From Aliiruegeria lutimaris (lineage in GTDB: Bacteria; Pseudomonadota; Alphaproteobacteria; Rhodobacterales; Rhodobacteraceae), in assembly GCF_900099935.1 (NCBI RefSeq), contig NZ_FNEK01000048.1:1-39792 (forward strand): a stretch of 39,792 nt of DNA, read 5' to 3'. Both the position numbers and the translations under genes were made by a program. Within the stretch, counting starts at the first letter, position 1, and each line of letters starts with the position of its first letter. Below the pieces are notes generated by a model. That model saw only the letters and a program-made list of their open reading frames with translations. It ran no database searches and had not been told where the DNA came from. Of the stretch, positions 16,629 through 39,791 are shown piece by piece.

Positions 16629-16823
16629 GTGTCCAAGGAACGCAAAATCCTCGATCCGTCCAATGAGGACGACCGCCGACCCAGCGTAGGTGTCGAGCCT
16701 CTTAAGCGCACCGATGTCGTTCTGATCTCGCTCGCCCGGCTTCTCGGTCGAGCTGAGGGGACATCGTCCAATTCGGAGCGCTGCGAGTCGTCGCCCGGCC
16801 AGGAAAAAGGAGATCATTCATGA
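16629..16823 (+). CDS. Small acidic/helical protein coupled to the excisionase-like gene
   Basis: GTG start, 64 residues. The stop overlaps the next start as ATGA. A central segment VEPLKRTDVVLISLARLLGR resembles a short conserved helix I have seen in small proteins next to integrases (LARLxGR). Flanks are polar. The overlap with a convincing downstream gene supports it, but the ribosome site is weak. Confidence 0.45.
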   Translation: MSKERKILDPSNEDDRRPSVGVEPLKRTDVVLISLARLLGRAEGTSSNSERCESSPGQEKGDHS

Positions 16824-16987
16824 AAATGCTGAAGGTTGAGCAGGTGGCCAAAGAGCTTCAACTCTCTGTCCGGACTGTCAGGCGTTTGATCGAAGAAGGG
16901 GTGATTCCGGTTCACAGGATCGGTCGGTCGGTGCGCGTTAGTGAGGATGATCTCAAGCGTTACATCGCCTCCTGCCGCCAGGTGTAA
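16820..16987 (+). CDS. Excisionase-like helix-turn-helix protein, 55 aa
   Basis: AAAAAGGAG lies seven bases before the ATG. The sequence MLKVEQVAKELQLSVRTVRR then LIEEGVIPVHRIGRSVRVSE with a final LKRYI is the MerR/Xis-type HTH_17 fold: helix-turn-helix followed by a basic wing. Such proteins serve as recombination directionality factors or small regulators. It sits 146 bases before the three-recombinase operon and so is the likely directionality factor for it. Partner assignment is inference. Confidence 0.88.
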   Translation: MKMLKVEQVAKELQLSVRTVRRLIEEGVIPVHRIGRSVRVSEDDLKRYIASCRQV

Positions 16988-17040
16988 TGGCAGATCAGCG
17001 CATTATCTGTCTTCGCAAGTCACATCGGTGGGTCGGTATT

Positions 17041-17091
17041 ATGATTACTCGCCAAATTAGAACCACGCCTTCTGTGATATAGAGTAATCAT
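17041..17091. repeat. 10-bp inverted repeat before the recombinase operon
   Basis: ATGATTACTC (17041-17050) and its exact complement GAGTAATCAT (17082-17091) are separated by 31 bases, three turns of DNA. It lies just before the first recombinase gene and just after the excisionase-like gene. It could be a paired operator, excisionase binding site or recombinase arm site. Confidence 0.6.
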
Positions 17092-17133
17092 GATTCATGT
17101 CAGATGTCATCTCATGGCATCACAAGGAACCGC

Positions 17134-18846
17134 ATGTCACAAACTACTGTATCACAATCCGACGCCAATCCCTTCGCGGATCCGACGATCCCAACCCTAG
17201 AAGAGGTACTGGATCGGATCGCCGCCGATGATCGGCTGACCAAGGCTGAGAAAACCGCCCGGACCTCGGCAATCCGCACGGCAGGCCGTGCAATCGGCCT
17301 GCCATTGTCGGCAATCCCGGCCCATCCAGCTTTCCTGCGCAAGAAGCTTGCATCGGTTGTTCCGGCACGCGTCGGGCTCAGGATCACTTCCTGGCGCAAC
17401 GCGAAGAGCATTCTGAACAAGGCGCTCCGCGAACAAGGGCTTGACGTTATGCCAGGGCGTTACCTGTCGCCGATCTCGGATACATGGAAACCCTATTGGG
17501 AGGCCTTGCCACAGCGGCCATTCCGGATCGCACTCAGTCGTTTCATTCGGTTTGCATCGACGCGTGGACGTGGGCCGGACGACATTGCAGAAGACGACTT
17601 TGCCGACTTTGACCGCGCGTTGATGCAGGAAAGTCTCGTTAAGGCGCCGGAAACCGTGAGCCGTGATACGCGGCGGTTCTGGAATGAAGCCGGCGATCTG
17701 GAAGTGGACTGGCCGGCCTTGCGGGTGGCGGTTCCCGATCGCCGCGACCGCTACATTGTGCCTTTGTCGGAGTTTCCACCAAGCCTGGCGGAAGAACTGA
17801 ATGAATACCGCAATGCCCTCTGTGGCGACATTCTCGATATCGACAGCCCTGTCAAACCGATCCGGCCCGAAAGCGCGGACAACAAGATTGTAGCGCTGCA
17901 CCGGATTGCGTCGGCGGCTGTCGCGGGTGGCATGCCGCCCTCGGACATACCGGATTTGAGGACGGTTGTTCGTCCGGACGTCGTGAAACGTGCCCTGCGA
18001 TACATCCGGGAGCGAAATGGAAAGGACAAGCTCAAGTCCTTCGACACCCTTCTTGCCCATGCCCTGTCGACAGCGCGCCACTGGGTCAGGGCGCCGGAAG
18101 AAGAGATTGCCCAGCTGAACAGGATCAAGCGCGCACTCGATATCAACACCTACGAAATGAGCGAGGCGACCGGCCGGGTGCTGCGCGACCTCAACGACCC
18201 GGCATTGCTGCGCCGACTCATTCTGCTGCCGAACGAAGTGTTCGAGGAAATCGCCCGCAACAAGGATCGGAAACGCGTCGACCTCATCGAGGCGCAGGTT
18301 GCACTCGCAATCGCCATCCTGATCTGTGCGCCGATCCGCCCGAAGAACCTTGCCGCACTCCATCTTGAGCGGCACCTGTTGGAAATCGGCGCTGGCCGCA
18401 AACGTCGCCGCCACATCCGGATACACGGCGAGGAGGTCAAGAATGGCGAGGATCTCGAGTATCCGTTGCCCAACCGCGTCGCTCACTTACTGAATGTGTA
18501 TTTGGAAGAAATCCGGCCGCGCCTCGCGCGGACAGACAATCTCTACCTGTTTCCGGGAGAGATGGATGGACCCAAAGGCGCCTCACTTCTGAGCAACCAG
18601 ATTGCCAATCTCACGGAATCCCGCCTCGGGGTAAGGATGACTGCGCACAAGTTCCGCGCTGTTGCTGGAAAGATCATCCTCGACCAGAATCCGACCGGTC
18701 AGGAGATTGCGCGACAGGTTCTTGGCCATCGCGATATCACGACAACGGCGACCTATTACGCACCATTGCAGCGCGATCGTGCCATCGATCTCTACGACAA
18801 GGCTATACGTGCCACCGCATCAGGCAATGGAAGGCACTACCGATGA
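17134..18846 (+). CDS. Tyrosine recombinase 1 of the trio (570 aa)
   Basis: Start at ATG 17134 with AAGGA six bases upstream (MSQTTVSQSDANPFADPTIP). The catalytic domain is C-terminal: Arg402 in CAPIRPKNLAALHL, a Lys in the EEVKNGEDLEYPL hairpin (Lys436), H-x-x-R as His505/Arg508 in AHKFRAV, His532 in LGHRD, and nucleophile Tyr541 or 542 in TYYAPL. All essential residues are present. The ~380-residue N-terminal part is much longer than in phage integrases and is probably the arm/core-binding region. The stop overlaps the next gene as ATGA. Confidence 0.92.
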   Translation: MSQTTVSQSDANPFADPTIPTLEEVLDRIAADDRLTKAEKTARTSAIRTAGRAIGLPLSAIPAHPAFLRKKLASVVPARVGLRITSWRNAKSILNKALREQGLDVMPGRYLSPISDTWKPYWEALPQRPFRIALSRFIRFASTRGRGPDDIAEDDFADFDRALMQESLVKAPETVSRDTRRFWNEAGDLEVDWPALRVAVPDRRDRYIVPLSEFPPSLAEELNEYRNALCGDILDIDSPVKPIRPESADNKIVALHRIASAAVAGGMPPSDIPDLRTVVRPDVVKRALRYIRERNGKDKLKSFDTLLAHALSTARHWVRAPEEEIAQLNRIKRALDINTYEMSEATGRVLRDLNDPALLRRLILLPNEVFEEIARNKDRKRVDLIEAQVALAIAILICAPIRPKNLAALHLERHLLEIGAGRKRRRHIRIHGEEVKNGEDLEYPLPNRVAHLLNVYLEEIRPRLARTDNLYLFPGEMDGPKGASLLSNQIANLTESRLGVRMTAHKFRAVAGKIILDQNPTGQEIARQVLGHRDITTTATYYAPLQRDRAIDLYDKAIRATASGNGRHYR

Positions 18847-19898
18847 AACCCTCTGCAACCTGGTGCCTCCATCTTCTGAATTGGCCGGAAGTTGACCGCG
18901 ACGCCTGGAATGCTGCATTTGTCGGCGAGGACTGGCTGGACGACGCGGGTCCCGGATTTCACCTTAGGCCAAAAACGCGCGAGAAGTATGCCGAAGAGTA
19001 TGGTCACTGGCTTGCGTGGCTTTCCGATGAGGGGCTTCTTGACCCGCAGGCCGCACCCGCAAGCCGTGTGACCCAGGAACACCTTGCGGCATATGCTACT
19101 TGGATGCGAGATCGTGTTGCACCGGTGACCGTTCGCATGCGGGTCGAAGGCCTCGGGCACGCCCTTGCTCTGATGGATCAAGCTCATTCCCCAGAGGTCT
19201 TTCGCAAGATCCTTGACCGACTGCCGAAGACGCCGAGCCGTGACAAACGCCGCCAACTGCGGGACCCTGTCGAGCTGATCGATCTTGGACACGAGTTGAT
19301 GAGCCGGGCGGAGAATGGCGCGTTCGGACCACCGCGTTATAATGCGGTTGGGTATCGTGACGGCCTTATCATTGCCCTCTGTGCAAACCGGCCCTTGCGC
19401 CGGTCCAACCTCGCCGCCCTTCGGATCGGCGTTCATCTGCGGAACGTTGCCGGTGTCTTGCGGATCGTCATACCGAGTGAGGAAACGAAGACCCGCGTGC
19501 CAATCGATATGAGCTGGCCGGAGCCACTGCTGCCGGCTCTCGATCGCTACGCAGATCATTGGCGGCCGACTCTGCTCGGGCCTCACCGCGACCCTGGAAT
19601 GCTCTGGATCTCCCGTTGGGGTGGCGGGGCGCTCTCCGCCCATACACTGGCCTGCAATATCAGGCGTCATACCGAAGAGGCCTTCGGCGTCGCCATCAGC
19701 CCGCACCGTTTCCGCGACGCGGCTGCAACCATGTTGGCGATCCGGGATCCGAAGAACGTTCGGGCCGCCGCTGCCGTGCTCGGCCACGGCTCCTATGAAA
19801 CAACCCAGAAACATTACAATCTCGCCCGGCAACTCGACGCCGTTCGCCTGCTGAACGACAGCGTCGACGCCATTCTGTGCGACAAGGAGGTTCAATGA
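18843..19898 (+). CDS. Tyrosine recombinase 2 of the trio (351 aa)
   Basis: ATGA overlap with recombinase 1. SAM-like core-binding domain at about 40-130 (TREKYAEEYGHWLAWLSDEG), catalytic domain from about 145: Arg186 in NRPLRRSNLAAL, Lys216 in SEETKTR, His288/Arg291 in PHRFRDAAA, His315 in LGHGS, Tyr325 in QKHYNLA. Complete and apparently active. Clearly a different subgroup from recombinase 1, so this is not a simple duplication. Its stop overlaps the serine recombinase start as ATGA. Confidence 0.93.
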   Translation: MKPSATWCLHLLNWPEVDRDAWNAAFVGEDWLDDAGPGFHLRPKTREKYAEEYGHWLAWLSDEGLLDPQAAPASRVTQEHLAAYATWMRDRVAPVTVRMRVEGLGHALALMDQAHSPEVFRKILDRLPKTPSRDKRRQLRDPVELIDLGHELMSRAENGAFGPPRYNAVGYRDGLIIALCANRPLRRSNLAALRIGVHLRNVAGVLRIVIPSEETKTRVPIDMSWPEPLLPALDRYADHWRPTLLGPHRDPGMLWISRWGGGALSAHTLACNIRRHTEEAFGVAISPHRFRDAAATMLAIRDPKNVRAAAAVLGHGSYETTQKHYNLARQLDAVRLLNDSVDAILCDKEVQ

Positions 19899-21550
19899 GC
19901 AAATCTGACACGCAACGGGCAGCTATCTATTCGCGGTACTCCTCCGATCTGTCGAGCGACGCTTCGATCGAGGATCAGGTTCGACGCTGCCGGGCGTATG
20001 CGGAGGCCAAGGGTTGGGTGGTTTCCGGCGAGTTTGAGGATCGGGCGATTAGCGGCGCGTCTGTTCTGAGACCTGGTTACCAGGATCTGCTTCAGACGGT
20101 GCAAACGGGCAAGGTCGACGTCATCCTTACCGAAGCACTCGACCGTCTTTCGCGTGACCAGGAAGATATTGCGGGTCTTTTCAAACGCGCCCGGTTCCTC
20201 GGTGTGCGGCTGGAGACAGTCTCGGAGGGCGAAATTGGCGAACTTCACATCGGCCTCAAGGGGACGATGAACGCGCTGTATCTGAAGGACCTGGCGGACA
20301 AGACCCGTCGCGGGCTTGAGGGCCGGATCAGAGCGCGCAAGAGCGCCGGTGGCCTTTGCTACGGCTACGCGGTCGTCCCGGGCGAGGAGAGAGGCGATCG
20401 CGAGATCGTTCCGGCCGAGGCGGCCACCATCCGTCGAATCTTCGAGGCCTTTACCGCTGGAAAGTCCCCCAAGGCTATCGCACGGGATCTGAATACAGAC
20501 GGCATCCCGGGGCCCCGCGGTCGCATGTGGCGCGACACGGCCATTCGAGGCCATCGCCAACGTGGCACGGGCATTCTCAACAACGAGCTCTATGTCGGTC
20601 GCCTAGTCTGGAACCGGCTCCGTTATGTTAAAGACCCTGCAACTGGCAAGCGCGTCTCTCGCATCAATCCGCAAGACGAATGGATCGTTGAAGATGCGTC
20701 TCACCTCCGCATTGTAGACGATGGCGTATGGGATCGGGTCAAGGAACGTCAGGCTGCGATTGATGCGACCCCAGCGGTCCAGGGAATTAAGAAGAGCCGT
20801 TTCTGGGAGCATCGTCGACCGGGACATCTCCTCACTGGGCTTCTCCATTGTGGCACCTGCGGTGGCGTGTTTGCTTCTGCTGGTCGTGATTACCTCGCCT
20901 GTTCCAATGCGCGAAAGCTGGGAACCTGCGACCAACGAAAGGGCATACGGCGCCAAGTCCTGGAGGGCTTTGTCCTCAATCTGCTTCGCGAACGGTTGAT
21001 GCAGCCGCAAGCCGTGGAAGCTTTCATTCAGGCGTATCACAGCGAGGTCAACTCTGGCCGTGATGCAGAAGAAGCTAAGCGTGCGGAACTGGTCAGACAG
21101 CACAAACTCGTCAGCGACAAGCTTGACGGTCTCTACGATGCGATCGCGGATGGGCTTCGTACACCGGGTTTGATGGCGAAGCTGGAGGCCCTGGAGGCTG
21201 ATAAGGCCGAACTGGAAGCACGAGTATCGGTACCGCCTCCGTCCCCTGTACGGCTGCATCCGAACCTTTCCGCAATCTACCGGCAAAAGGTCGAACGACT
21301 CGGCAAGTCCATCCAGGACCCCGGCATTCGCGACGAAGCCCTCGCGCTTCTTCGCCAACTGATCACGCAGGTTCGGATCATTCACGCGGCCTCCGGATGG
21401 GAGGTCCAGCTAGATGGCGATATCGAAGCACTTGTGGTTTTGGGGGCCACCACCGAAACTCGCGATGGCCATGGCAGGACCAAGGCATCGCTGAGTTCGG
21501 TAAAAGTGGTTGCGGGGGTAGGATTTGAACCTACGACCTTCAGGTTATGA
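19895..21550 (+). CDS. Large serine recombinase, third of the trio (551 aa)
   Basis: ATG overlaps the preceding stop and is preceded by AAGGAGG. Residues 8-145 are a resolvase domain: AAIYSRYSSDLSSDASIEDQ (catalytic Ser16/17 region), LTEALDRLSRDQEDIA. Recombinase domain (LCYGYAVVPGEERGDREIV, IARDLNTDGIPGPRGRMW) and a zinc ribbon (LHCGTCGGVF ... LACSNARKLGTCDQRKG) follow, then a coiled-coil segment. The last residues VAGVGFEPTTFRL are the antisense translation of a tRNA-Met 3' half, and the TGA stop lies in the anticodon loop. So the gene end is formed by the attachment site. Confidence 0.93.
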   Translation: MSKSDTQRAAIYSRYSSDLSSDASIEDQVRRCRAYAEAKGWVVSGEFEDRAISGASVLRPGYQDLLQTVQTGKVDVILTEALDRLSRDQEDIAGLFKRARFLGVRLETVSEGEIGELHIGLKGTMNALYLKDLADKTRRGLEGRIRARKSAGGLCYGYAVVPGEERGDREIVPAEAATIRRIFEAFTAGKSPKAIARDLNTDGIPGPRGRMWRDTAIRGHRQRGTGILNNELYVGRLVWNRLRYVKDPATGKRVSRINPQDEWIVEDASHLRIVDDGVWDRVKERQAAIDATPAVQGIKKSRFWEHRRPGHLLTGLLHCGTCGGVFASAGRDYLACSNARKLGTCDQRKGIRRQVLEGFVLNLLRERLMQPQAVEAFIQAYHSEVNSGRDAEEAKRAELVRQHKLVSDKLDGLYDAIADGLRTPGLMAKLEALEADKAELEARVSVPPPSPVRLHPNLSAIYRQKVERLGKSIQDPGIRDEALALLRQLITQVRIIHAASGWEVQLDGDIEALVVLGATTETRDGHGRTKASLSSVKVVAGVGFEPTTFRL

Positions 21551-21555
21551 GCCTG
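21507..21555 (-). other. 3' half of a tRNA-Met gene (putative att core)
   Basis: On the minus strand, 49 bases run from the 5' anticodon-stem strand through the loop CTCATAA (anticodon CAT), the variable region AAGGTCG, the T arm TAGGTTCAAATCCTA and acceptor strand to an encoded CCA. The 5' half (acceptor, D arm) is absent: the preceding sequence GGACTTCGGAAACCG does not pair with CCCCGCA. This is how integration at a tRNA 3' end leaves a duplicated fragment. The intact tRNA and the partner att copy are not in the window. Confidence 0.85.
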
Positions 21556-21605
21556 CGGTTTCCGAAGTCCCGCATCCGTCCGCCATTGCGACAGGAGGTA
21601 ACGCT

Positions 21606-21713
21606 GGTTCCTGCAGAACCGACTGGACTACGCGGGCGTAGCACGCATCACTGTCCTTGCGCCCGATGAGTTCGGGCTCTCCCTGGTACCGGGGGACGGC
21701 ATTCCGCCGTCCC
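21606..21713 (+). promoter_or_regulatory. Series of four perfect stem-loops before DUF3489 gene
   Basis: Within 108 bases: GGTTC/GAACC (21606-21620), CTACG/CGTAG (21628-21641), GCCCGA/TCGGGC (21661-21677) and GGGACGGC/GCCGTCCC (21693-21713), all with 4-5 base loops. The last ends 19 bases before the DUF3489 start, which has GAGGAG. No reading frame covers it with a start codon. This could be a structured mRNA leader, a small RNA, or recombination-site DNA for the downstream recombinase. Confidence 0.5.
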
Positions 21714-21732
21714 GGGATCGAGGAGACCAGAC

Positions 21733-21966
21733 ATGCCCGACCGCAAACGGACCACCAAGATCGAGAGTGTCCGATCGCTTCTGCGCCGCCCTGCCGGCGC
21801 AAGCCTCGAGGCGATCTGCAAGACCACCGGCTGGCAGAAGCATTCCGCCCGCGCCGCGCTCAGCACCCTGCGCAAGAACGGCGCCGCGATCGAACGACGA
21901 ACGGCGGAACGGGATGACGCACCGGCGACCTATCACATGATAGAAGTGGCTGAGACATCCTCATGA
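21733..21966 (+). CDS. DUF3489 domain protein
   Basis: 77 residues: MPDRKRTTKIESVRSLLRRP then GASLEAICKTTGWQKHSARA and ALSTLRKNGAAIERRTAERD. This is the DUF3489 winged-helix-like fold (TGWQxHSxRAALSxLRKxG), likely DNA binding. It is the first gene of the common triad DUF3489-DUF2924-serine recombinase; it overlaps the second by ATGA. Its role in the triad is not established; a control or directionality function is plausible. Confidence 0.9.
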   Translation: MPDRKRTTKIESVRSLLRRPAGASLEAICKTTGWQKHSARAALSTLRKNGAAIERRTAERDDAPATYHMIEVAETSS

Positions 21967-22379
21967 GCCCGCGGATCGATGTTGCCGTGCTTGCCGGGAT
22001 GAACCGCCCCGACCTTATCGCGACCTGGCAGGAGGTGTTCGACAGCGCGGCCCCCAAAAGGCTGAGCCGCGCCTTCCTGCGCCGGTTCCTCGCCTTCGAG
22101 TTGCAGTCCCGCCGGTATGGCGGGCTGTCCCGACAGGTCACGGCGGCGCTGACAGTCCGCCCTGCATCAACAAAGCGGCCAACCTCCCCTGCCCTCCAGC
22201 CCGGCGGCCGCCTGCTCCGGGAATGGAACGGCGTGACCCATGTCGTCGATGTCGGCGAGGACGGGTTTTCCTGGAATGGCAGGCGCTACCGCTCGCTTTC
22301 GGCCATCGCCCGCGAGATCACCGGCGCTCACTGGTCCGGGCCGCGCTTCTTCGGCCTGTCCGGAAGCGCCCCAAAATGA
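21963..22379 (+). CDS. DUF2924 domain protein
   Basis: 138 residues. MNRPDLIATWQEVFDSAAPK, LSRAFLRRFLAFELQSRRYG, then the C-terminal LREWNGVTHVVDVGEDGFSW, NGRRYRSLSAIAREITGAHW are DUF2924 hallmarks. The WNGxxHxV...GFxWxGxxYxSLSxIAxxITGxxWSGPxFFGL half is a small fold also seen near other recombinases and is likely nucleic-acid binding. It is flanked by ATGA overlaps on both sides, so all three genes are translationally coupled. Confidence 0.92.
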   Translation: MSPRIDVAVLAGMNRPDLIATWQEVFDSAAPKRLSRAFLRRFLAFELQSRRYGGLSRQVTAALTVRPASTKRPTSPALQPGGRLLREWNGVTHVVDVGEDGFSWNGRRYRSLSAIAREITGAHWSGPRFFGLSGSAPK

Positions 22380-24064
22380 CCGCGCGGCCGAAGATCCGCT
22401 GCGCGATCTATACGCGGAAGTCTTCCGAAGAAGGGCTCGACCAGGATTTCAACTCGCTCGACGCCCAGCACGAGGCCTGTGCCGCCTATATCGCCAGCCA
22501 GCGGCACGAGGGCTGGAAACCGTTGCCGCAGCGCTACGACGATGGCGGCCTCTCTGGCGGCACGCTGGACCGCCCTGCCCTGCAGCGCCTGCTGGCGGAG
22601 GTCGATGCCGGCCGTATCGACATGGTCGTGGTCTACAAGATCGACCGGCTGACCCGATCGCTCGCCGATTTCGCGCGGCTGGTCGAACGCCTCGAAGCGG
22701 CAGGATGTTCCTTCGTCTCGGTCACACAGGCCTTCAACACCTCGTCCTCGATGGGGCGGCTCACGCTAAATGTGCTCCTCTCCTTCGCCCAGTTCGAGCG
22801 CGAGGTGACGGCCGAACGCATTCGCGACAAGATCGCCGCCTCGAAGAAGAAGGGTCTCTGGATGGGAGGCAACCTGCCGCTCGGCTATGATAACCACCCC
22901 GACCCGAAGACCCGGACCCTCGTGATCAACTCGACCGAAGCCGCCATCGTCCGACGGATCTTCGATCTCTATGCCGAACTGGGATGCCTGCGGCGGGTGG
23001 CAGAGAGTGCTGCGGCGGAAGGGCTGCGCTCGAAACGCCGGCTACGGGCGGACGGTAGGGTCACCGGCGATCGGCCAATGTCCCGCGGGCAGATCCATTT
23101 CCTGCTCCGCAACCCTGTCTATCTCGGCCGGATCCGCCACAAGGAGAAGAGCTGGCCGGGCCTGCACGAAGCCATCATCGACGGGGATCTCTGGAAGCGG
23201 GTCCAGGACATGCTGGGCGCGGCCGCGCGCCGGTCGAGACGGCAGGGAGATGCCTCCAATGGTGGGAAGGCCCGTGATCGTGAGGCATGGCTCACCGCCA
23301 AGCTGCAGGATGAGACCGGGGACCGGCTGACGCCGACACATACGCTTCGGAATGGACGGCGGCTCAGATACTACGTGTCCAACCGGCTGATCTCCTGCGG
23401 CACCGACCCCACCGGTTGGCGGCTTCCGGGCCCGGCGCTGGAAAAGGCGATTGTCAATGTCGTGGCAGCACATCTCGAACATGCCGCCACCTCCCACCGG
23501 ATCCTGGCAACTCCGGACGCATCCACGGCCGGAACGATGGCACCGAGGATGCGGACCTTGCTCGACCGCATCGCCGGGTTCGATGGCGCGCTCTGTGGCG
23601 ACCTCGTGAACAGAGGCAGTTTGCGGCGTGGCCGGATCGAGATGGAGCTCGACGCGTCGGTGCTCGCGCGGGAACTCGCGCTTGCCGAGAAAGATCTCCA
23701 CCCGGATCTTCTGCATGTCACCGCTGCCTTCGACCTGCGCCGCCGCGGTGTCGAGGCCCGGATCGTTGTCGGGGACATCAGGCCATCCCCCGACCCGTAT
23801 CTCCGGGCCATGCTGGTCCGCGCCCATGGCTGGGCCCATGAACTCCGATCCGGCACCGGGGTCTCCGAGATCGCCCGACGCGAGAAGGTTCCGGACAGCT
23901 ACATTCGCACCCGGTCCCAGATCGCTTTCCTCTCGCCAGGGATCCAGTCGGCCATCCTCGAGGGATCCCAGCCGCCGGAACTCACGCAGAAGCGCCTGGT
24001 CAGCAACACGCTGCCGCTCGACTGGGCGGAACAGGAACGTCTGCTCGGCTTCCGCGAGGCCTGA
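22376..24064 (+). CDS. Serine recombinase of the DUF3489-DUF2924 triad (562 aa)
   Basis: ATGA overlap with DUF2924; the open frame upstream is a shadow of that gene. Resolvase domain: RCAIYTRKSSEEGLDQDFNS with catalytic Ser16, VVVYKIDRLTRSLADFARLV, then the helix SFAQFEREVTAERIRDKIAA. Recombinase domain: GNLPLGYD ... IVRRIFDLYAELGCLRRVAE, LLRNPVYLGRIRHKEKSWPG. The zinc ribbon of related recombinases is degenerate here (SCGTDPTGWRLPG). It is a different lineage from the trio serine recombinase at 19895. It is convergent with the DUF5681 gene, 42 bases away. Confidence 0.93.
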   Translation: MTARPKIRCAIYTRKSSEEGLDQDFNSLDAQHEACAAYIASQRHEGWKPLPQRYDDGGLSGGTLDRPALQRLLAEVDAGRIDMVVVYKIDRLTRSLADFARLVERLEAAGCSFVSVTQAFNTSSSMGRLTLNVLLSFAQFEREVTAERIRDKIAASKKKGLWMGGNLPLGYDNHPDPKTRTLVINSTEAAIVRRIFDLYAELGCLRRVAESAAAEGLRSKRRLRADGRVTGDRPMSRGQIHFLLRNPVYLGRIRHKEKSWPGLHEAIIDGDLWKRVQDMLGAAARRSRRQGDASNGGKARDREAWLTAKLQDETGDRLTPTHTLRNGRRLRYYVSNRLISCGTDPTGWRLPGPALEKAIVNVVAAHLEHAATSHRILATPDASTAGTMAPRMRTLLDRIAGFDGALCGDLVNRGSLRRGRIEMELDASVLARELALAEKDLHPDLLHVTAAFDLRRRGVEARIVVGDIRPSPDPYLRAMLVRAHGWAHELRSGTGVSEIARREKVPDSYIRTRSQIAFLSPGIQSAILEGSQPPELTQKRLVSNTLPLDWAEQERLLGFREA

Positions 24065-38531: not shown

Positions 38532-39435
38532 TCAGGCCCGAGAATGTGGCCAGCGTGTTTTCGCCCAGGCCGCGATCAGTTTTGACCTTCGTCGTATCGA
38601 GTCAGTAGACCAATTGGTGTGATCCGTTGCGATGGAGCGAGCCGATGCAAAGATTGAACCACGATACTCAGCCGCCTTTGCATCGAAGCCCGAGTTCGAC
38701 AACGCCGGGTTCATTGAAGACGTGAGTGGAATTAGATTGCCCCACGAGTGCTTCAGGCTAGCGGCCTCTTCTTCATCTTTGATTACCCAGTCAGGTCCTG
38801 GTTTCACTGGTAGAATGTGCTCGATTTGGAAATCATCAATCGGTGACTCTCCATCGGCAGACAACTCGAACTGACGGCGAGCGTACTTTGCGACGCGTTT
38901 ACCATACAACGAACCTTCGAGAACTGCCTTCTCGAACTCTGTGTCGTTGGGCCATGGGACTGTAGACCTCCGGGAGATAGCTGTCTTAACCATCTCAACC
39001 GAAAATCCGTGTTCGGATGCCTCACCCCATAGGCCCTTAAAAACGGCATGAAGGCCGGTTGGTTCAAATCCAGAAATCGCGCGTCGAAACAGGAAACTCT
39101 CCACTAAGCGTGCAGATTCGGTCGCCATCTCTTCGGCCACCTCGTCAGCGTTGACGGCATCAACAAGCTTTAGGAAAAAGGGGAAGACTGAACTCGGAGC
39201 GCCCATATCATGAAGGTCGCGAAGGGCTTTTCCAAGATCTTCTGGAATGCTGTCCGCCAAGTCGCCGGTCTGCAAAACGAAGAACGTATCTGTGAAGTTG
39301 TCCATGGATTGGATGACCTGTCGAGGGTCGGTCCCGTCTCCCCAGATTTTTCGCAGTGTTTGGAATAGTTCTGCCTTTGTGATGCTGGAATCATGCACCA
39401 ACCCGTATGGGAATAGAAACTTCTCCAAGTCTGTG
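38532..39435 (-). pseudogene. GmrSD-like DUF262/DUF1524 restriction protein, N-terminus lost to IS insertion
   Basis: The gene part begins at the IS end (about 39435) and reads TDLEKFLFPYGLVHDSSITK through FLFRRAISGFEPTGLHAVFK to a C-terminal DUF1524 HNH-like domain: QIEHILPVKPGPDWV with the catalytic-type His, then HSWGNLIPLTSSMNPALSNS. The N-terminal DUF262 domain with its DGQQR motif is missing, replaced by IS sequence in frame by chance. DUF262-DUF1524 proteins are type IV restriction systems (GmrSD) against modified phage DNA. About 300 residues remain, which should not function. Confidence 0.85.
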
Positions 39436-39461
39436 TGGACTGCCCCCATCGAGTGGTCCGG
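39436..39461 (-). repeat. Right terminal inverted repeat of the IS3 element at the right edge
   Basis: Starts TGGACTGCCCCCATCGAG on the plus strand and ends TGGTCCGG, eight bases from the transposase stop. This matches the ends of IS407-group IS3 elements as I remember them. It marks the junction with the restriction pseudogene. Confidence 0.65.
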
Positions 39462-39469
39462 GTTGATTG

Positions 39470-39791
39470 TTAGTGCATGGTCGGCCTCTGGTCCATTGGA
39501 ACGAAGCTTTCGGGTGCTGGTGGTCGGTAGCCCAGGGCACTGTGTGGCCTGACGGTGTTGTAGTGGCGCCGCCACCGTTCGATCAAGATTTGGGCTTCTC
39601 GTAGCGTATAGAACACCTCTCCGTTCAGCAGTTCGTCTCTGAAACGGGAGTTGAAGCTTTCGCAGTATCCGTTCTCCCACGGTGAGCCAGGCGCGATGAA
39701 CGCGGTTTTCGCACCAACGGCGCCGATCCAGGCCCGCACCTTCTTGGCAATGAATTCCGCTCCGTTGTCGGACCTTATGAACTCGGGTGGG
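39470..39791 (-). mobile_element. IS3-family (IS407-group-like) transposase OrfB, C-terminal fragment
   Basis: Open at the right window edge; reads [20 protein letters not shown] (with the second catalytic Asp), then [20 protein letters not shown] (catalytic Glu) and [16 protein letters not shown] to TAA. About 75 percent identical by eye to the left-edge transposase, so a different element of the same group. It is inserted in the restriction gene to its left, with its 3' end facing the interior. Confidence 0.93.

Follow-up and report, generated by a model that had tools for sequence, protein, structure and literature searches.

A serine integrase gene coupled to paired tyrosine recombinase genes at the end of a putative tRNA-Met island in Aliiruegeria lutimaris and other Alphaproteobacteria

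Work on serine and tyrosine recombinases usually treats the two as alternatives. Recombinase in trio (RIT) elements have three tyrosine recombinases, encoded in adjacent and overlapping genes, and terminal inverted repeats (PMC10214605 and PMC3414803, in the excerpts used here). In the Tn554 family, SE and GInt, overlapping genes encode at least two tyrosine recombinases that work together; one of these is long in the Tn554 relatives, for which a long-plus-short pair is described in an excerpt of PMC3414803. None of the five groups tabulated in the excerpt of PMC10214605 has a serine integrase. Genomic islands and prophages of the Islander/TIGER type insert into a tRNA gene and restore it in doing so, with a displaced 3' end marking the far end, and an excerpt of PMC6536676 describes tRNA-Met insertion by Paracoccus phage vB_PamS_Pami6, which has a serine recombinase. 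Here we analyse an operon of a helix-turn-helix (HTH) gene, two tyrosine recombinase genes (Y1 and Y2) and a large serine integrase gene (S1) in a 39,792-nucleotide stretch of Aliiruegeria lutimaris (contig NZ_FNEK01000048.1, positions 1 to 39,792; hereafter the window). On balance, we consider it probable that this is the right-end recombination module of an island in the 3' end of a tRNA-Met(CAT) gene, in which S1 would integrate the island while Y1-Y2 with the HTH protein would act at a site of their own, most likely resolving multimers.

The coordinates and Pfam domains agree with the original prediction of an HTH gene followed by two tyrosine recombinases and one serine recombinase, with four-base ATGA overlaps joining Y1 to Y2 and Y2 to S1 (Table 1). 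The HTH protein matched HTH_17 (7e-16) and TIGR01764 excise (1.3e-14), Y1 and Y2 matched Phage_integrase (4.8e-08 and 2.4e-09, respectively), and S1 matched Resolvase (2.6e-25), Recombinase (4.5e-22) and Zn_ribbon_recom (1.3e-09). A GTG at 19877 in the open reading frame (ORF) list is an alternative S1 start that would give 557 amino acids (aa). Two small ORFs had been placed ahead of the recombinases. The second is indeed Xis-like, while the first, of 64 aa, is unproven as a gene: it matched no Pfam family, and no relative was found outside the window's own contig. The catalytic residues predicted for all three enzymes are in place, with invariant positions among relatives at R412, K446, H515, R518 and Y552 in Y1, at R186, K216, H288, R291, H315 and Y325 in Y2, and in the DRLSR motif of S1. 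We take these to be recombinase active-site positions; the nucleophile serine of S1 (Y-x-R-x-S) was located by eye only. Y1 and Y2 are paralogous (hhalign 99.9%, 345 columns). The Y1 model (mean pLDDT, a model confidence score, 82.9) has a long helical N-terminal part followed by core-binding-like and catalytic parts. Among solved folds it is closest to XerH, Cre and XerA, and the Y2 model to XerD.

Table 1. Features of the operon and its DNA sites in the window
Feature	Position	Strand	Description
Small ORF	16629..16823	+	64 aa, overlaps HTH gene; gene status unproven
HTH gene	16820..16987	+	55 aa, excisionase/MerR-like HTH_17; accompanies Y1-Y2
Candidate Y1-Y2 site	17041..17091		HTH-Y1 gap; perfect inverted repeat ATGATTACTC-N31-GAGTAATCAT
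Y1, tyrosine recombinase	17104..18846	+	580 aa; 570 aa if ATG at 17134 used
Y2, tyrosine recombinase	18843..19898	+	351 aa, XerD-like, paralogue of C-terminal 345 columns of Y1
S1, large serine integrase	19895..21550	+	551 aa from ATG at 19895
attR (right attachment site) core TGGTTGCGGGGG	21507..21518	+	3' acceptor strand of tRNA-Met, antisense; sole copy in window
3' part of tRNA-Met(CAT) gene	21508..21555	-	cut at anticodon loop by a different element to the right

The HTH-Y1-Y2-S1 order was found across alphaproteobacterial families, among which Y1/Y2 identity is only ~30%. Of 244 genomes from the window's order, 22 had Y1 relatives (E <= 1e-10), and S1 directly followed Y2 at 15 loci in 14 of the 22, the window counted. 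One of these 15 trio loci ends at a contig edge and some have broken genes. A sample of the class contained 14 genomes out of 385 with Y1 matches (E <= 1e-30). Leaving aside G002 and the genome of the window, 12 remain, of which S1 followed in seven, was lacking in three and could not be placed in two with too short a contig. The phylum sample (299 genomes) contributed one further Y1 genome, of the same class and without S1, and a Y1 search of phage records gave no match. Among the 80 named S1 loci listed, out of 572 S1 relatives, Y1 and Y2 lay in front of 27, only Y2 in front of five and neither in front of 40, with eight cut. These loci include Ruegeria, Leisingera, Salipiger, Paracoccus, Thalassobaculum and Alsobacter, as well as one metagenome-assembled genome labelled Planctomycetota that is perhaps mis-binned. 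A damaged copy of the module lies on an Azospirillum plasmid. The HTH gene precedes Y1 in most trio and Y1-Y2 pair loci. Since the order is seen in many genomes, the operon arrangement is not a product of chance.

The junctions were measured in 46 trio rows, a few of which are the same genome twice, taking the in-frame start closest to the preceding stop, a choice that favours overlaps. The Y1-Y2 gap was -4 in 18 rows, -1 in eight and -8 in six, and the Y2-S1 gap was -4 in 23 and -1 in three, together 26 of the 43 measurable trios. One locus (G619) has an additional ORF between Y2 and S1. The proposal of a single conserved unit, with three overlapping genes and two chemistries, stands.

We also built a tree of 151 distinct S1 proteins by a quick method, from a sample biased by its selection for similarity to S1. 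Its rows comprised 50 with Y genes (44 trios and six with Y2 only), 95 without and six cut. The with-Y label changed 13 times on the tree, compared to a shuffled mean of 42, and none of 500 shuffles was as low. Therefore, the association between S1 and the Y genes is clustered on the tree, yet it was gained or lost several times. Mantel tests on 16 trios gave an r of 0.88 for Y1 versus Y2 and of 0.65 and 0.58 for the Y proteins versus S1 (p = 0.0001 each). Whether the genes would turn up mostly apart had been raised with the original prediction, and the answer is mixed: the 95 S1 rows have no adjacent Y gene, with the sampling bias just mentioned, and Y1-Y2 also occur without S1, while the other 50 rows do have a Y gene.

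Both island ends were found for four trio islands, in Ruegeria marina (L256), Ruegeria sp. HKCCSA071 (G027), G210 (on one contig) and Sediminimonas (G215). They are about 11.5, 19.3, 28.5 and 26.6 kb long, each contains Y1-Y2, and they are flanked by the direct repeat TGGTTGCGGGRG in the tRNA acceptor stem; their left and right ends have 23, 12, 13 and 12 bp in common, respectively. The displaced tRNA 3' end is also present to the left of a Maritalea island (12 bp in common), which kept the HTH gene and a broken S1 and lost Y1-Y2. The part common to the end repeats of all five islands is TGGTTGCGGG(A/G)G, again in the acceptor stem. In 19 other loci of the genus, the left flank of the G027 island ran straight into an intact tRNA-Met in seven and into other S1-type left ends in three, and the remaining loci were cut, altered or without the core. 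Among relatives, then, the tRNA is restored at one end, a displaced 3' piece lies at the other and the empty site exists. Flank comparison had been proposed as the way to find ends, target duplications and empty sites; ends, direct repeats and empty sites were found. The location of the ends also answers the concern that the serine recombinase might belong to a separate element beside a two-gene unit, as Y1-Y2 lie inside the S1 attachment sites of all four islands.

The tRNA-Met fragment predicted at the end of the operon is confirmed: its 48 bases are identical to the 3' part of tRNA-Met(CAT) as found in an intact gene on contig C182 of this genome, and it is the attachment site of S1. The C1-A72 mismatch is, we assume, a hallmark of initiator tRNAs; because of this mismatch and the place of the gene at rRNA operons in several loci, we regard this tRNA-Met as the initiator. 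S1 relatives (E <= 1e-60) were present in 71 of 239 genomes of the order. Those that were fetched mostly have no nearby Y gene, and their reading frame still enters the same tRNA. S1 belongs to a wider integrase family whose islands lie in the 3' end of tRNA-Met(CAT), and S1 by itself would suffice to define the site. One trio (L293) terminates in a different tRNA gene, and six of 45 trio loci have no tRNA core, through attP-type (free attachment site) ends or cut contigs. That S1 would both integrate and excise the island is well supported by the anatomy of these sites. At 16 loci, including L158, L159, L165 and L183, solo S1 is preceded by the gene for a conserved protein of up to 840 aa; the representative from L183 has AAA and Peptidase_M41 (FtsH-like) domains.

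The last 14 codons of S1 are the 3' part of tRNA-Met read antisense. Integrated S1 copies end VAG-x-GFEP-x-TFRL, with a stop that overlaps the anticodon, and the sequence after the crossover is the host tRNA read backwards. Joining the island ends in silico resulted in a different S1 tail, VAGxxF... We found S1 genes entering a non-tRNA, attP-like sequence at L170, L173, L188, L351, L380, L388 and L408, and also at L232, L263 and L274. By our reading, the far arm at L232, L274 and C130 repeats the near arm (CGCAACC) almost perfectly in inverted orientation, with the R-G pair at the centre, as would be expected of a serine-integrase site.

Two more core copies with S1-type left ends are present in the window's own genome, on C130 with a natural tRNA-Met flank and on C147 with an S1-like end before it. 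Either could be the left end of the window's island or of another. Further S1-type copies lie at tRNA-Met pieces on C146, C169 and C182. With several such copies in one genome, a tandem island array is likely. The window had first suggested an S1 crossover at the anticodon loop. This was ruled out once left ends had been located, as the cut there belongs to other elements on the right. Nor is the right flank a tRNA-Ser island by our test: a 12-mer search for the tRNA-Ser 3' end did not detect a repeated copy in the window.

A second conserved DNA site lies between the HTH stop and Y1. The motif TCGGGR-N43-TCCCGA was found there in 25 of 45 loci with a spacing that was always 43, although 36-46 was allowed, compared to 1 of 9000 in a shuffled control. 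Across 412 loci (4.18 Mb) there were 30 distinct exact matches, 29 of which are at the HTH-Y1 gap by position. Many loci with the motif possess more CCCGA copies at 32-base steps and GTCC copies at ~10-base steps. Other Y clades, the window's among them, have different arms in the same place and layout, and the inverted repeat of the window is only modestly unusual (1 of 40 shuffles equally good). A general inverted-repeat test of HTH-Y1 gaps was weak per locus (mean shuffle fraction 0.43); the strong signal is limited to the specific motif with its fixed spacing. The two-gene units at L052, L047, L065 and L212, which have no S1, contain the site too. In none of 45 loci were HTH and Y1 split by an insertion, which means that integration does not consume the site. 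As had been suggested, the enzymes very likely work at different sites, S1 at tRNA-Met and Y1-Y2 probably in the HTH-Y1 gap.

HTH-Y1-Y2 without S1 was found on the Pukyongiella plasmid p4, adjoining ParA and a replication gene, and on two plasmids from Roseomonas whose ParA genes lie at a distance of 4-6 kb, with Hachiman genes in between on one of the two. Upstream of HTH, a family of 214-320 aa proteins is encoded in eight loci (L053, L055, L057, L048, L052, L062, L064 and L147), ~0.4-1.3 kb before Y1; three of these proteins were searched against Pfam and gave no match.

We propose that S1 would recombine the attP of the island with the tRNA acceptor stem at TGGTTGCGGGRG, restoring the tRNA, so that after integration the S1 frame would terminate in host tRNA sequence and not in island sequence. 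HTH, Y1 and Y2 would form a second, separable recombination module, with Y1-Y2 acting at the HTH-Y1 site and the HTH protein as a directionality or regulatory factor. Y1-Y2 would serve to resolve the circular island or plasmid when it forms multimers or tandem copies, in an XerCD/dif-like or TnpI-like manner. This role appears the most likely because the site is not split by insertion, is single per element, lies in the promoter region and occurs on plasmids as well. Coupled translation may supply both systems together upon island excision. The module would resemble XerCD/dif, XerH/difH, Cre/loxP and TnpI-type resolution systems in predicted fold, paired paralogues, a candidate gene-adjacent site and plasmid occurrence. 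It differs from them in the large extra N-terminal part of Y1 and in arms that lie 43 bases apart instead of a short core.

Several observations weigh against this interpretation. The left end of the window's own island was not found within the window: the core pattern has one perfect copy there, which is the right end, and the left-end pattern matched at chance level (16 matches versus 11.1 expected). The motif is not fitted by 20 of the 45 loci, one of which (L062) carries it just outside the interval used, and in many loci the site has no obvious 6-8 bp spaced core and could be a mere operator or promoter. Y1 is broken in one of the four delimited islands (G027), and some S1-less pairs are chromosomal and not by par or rep genes, for example near cas1. 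The Y and S1 trees also conflict in places, so the unit is not strictly co-inherited. The Y pair of the window clusters with L237 and its S1 with another clade, which implies that Y1-Y2 and S1 were re-paired at least there; several other clades agree.

If the HTH-Y1 site is an operator only, Y1-Y2 might be cofactors of S1, either as architectural or directionality factors or in a second strand exchange, and excision or integration would need all three enzymes. The overlapping genes and the repeated Y/S1 association are consistent with this, as are the rigid helical repeat spacing (43, 32 and ~10 bases) in the promoter region and the different tails of integrated and free S1, a possible control point. 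We nevertheless find it unlikely, as most S1 rows are without Y genes, many of them at the same tRNA (the core is present at 69 of 96 solo S1 loci), and as Y1-Y2 exist without S1. We are similarly doubtful of a two-chemistry integration machine in which S1 inserts, Y1-Y2 and HTH act at the HTH-Y1 site, and integration rewrites the S1 C-terminus from an island-encoded to a tRNA-encoded tail. The enzyme would thereby "know" its state, and the tyrosine pair would be brought in for excision, resolution or directional control.

HTH-Y1-Y2 could instead be an independent mobile unit that repeatedly moved in front of S1, leaving S1 to do everything for the island with Y1-Y2 as passengers. Such a long-plus-short tyrosine pair is known in Tn554 relatives (excerpt of PMC3414803), and the occurrence of Y1-Y2 with and without S1, the tree conflicts such as that of the window, and the 13 label changes all point in this direction. 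However, order, orientation and overlap are identical every time, and no boundaries of a separate Y1-Y2 unit were found. Furthermore, one S1 clade of 35 rows that includes the window has 30 with Y genes, three without and two cut, which is steadier than expected of passengers, as is the scarcity of label changes relative to the shuffles. We therefore judge the passenger scenario improbable. A RIT element with its third tyrosine recombinase swapped for a serine recombinase, as originally envisaged, shares the three overlapping recombinase genes but is largely refuted and has very little left to recommend it, because plasmid pHG1 RIT proteins match weakly (hhalign probability 61.9 for RitA-like/Y1, in the C-terminal, catalytic half only, and 1.0, not significant, for RitB-like/Y2, with RitC outside the comparison) and the locus is a tRNA island with cargo inside and direct repeats of TGGTTGCGGGRG at its ends, not a transposon with terminal inverted repeats.

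The locus also departs from the other described systems. Unlike known tRNA islands and phage Pami6, it has a coupled tyrosine pair with a probable site of its own, an acceptor-stem cut and an S1 3' end completed by the tRNA; an S1 search of the phage collection gave five matches, none from Paracoccus. In contrast to Tn554, SE and GInt, its island ends are S1-type. In line with the original prediction, which knew of no described element with this layout, our full-text literature search yielded neither a mixed tyrosine-tyrosine-serine operon nor a tRNA-completed integrase of this kind.

The cargo of the R. marina island includes an RTX-repeat protein and a transposase piece, and that of the G215 island an HMA defence system. 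Among the matches listed, G210 has transport and oxidoreductase genes and G027 a sulfatase and others. No phage structural, conjugation or mobilisation families were seen among the Pfam matches listed for the cargo of the four islands. In the window, sulfatase genes that may be either cargo or host genes lie to the left of the module, and a protein at 38532-39680 has a GmrSD C-terminal domain and matches the PADLOC Orf5/HEC-06 models. The next element (21556-24064) contains DUF3489 and DUF2924 as well as a further serine recombinase (22376-24064). This arrangement recurs 1-4 kb to the right of tRNA-Met pieces in C169, G103 and G215, and the cluster, located to the right of tRNA-Met pieces cut at the anticodon loop, represents another type of element found at that tRNA. 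Instances of the cluster are at 21733-24064 in the window, at 6557-8874 in L041, at 8571-11040 in L100, and in L114. Contig C11 of G103 (L097-L100) and L258 each have several tRNA-Met 3' pieces with differing right neighbours, that is, islands stacked at one tRNA.

A widespread operon that couples both chemistries, with both DNA sites located, makes it possible to ask why an island would need the two together. The acceptor-stem site with its defined core, the tRNA-encoded tail and the integrase family at a conserved tRNA gene may also be useful for integration tools in Alphaproteobacteria.

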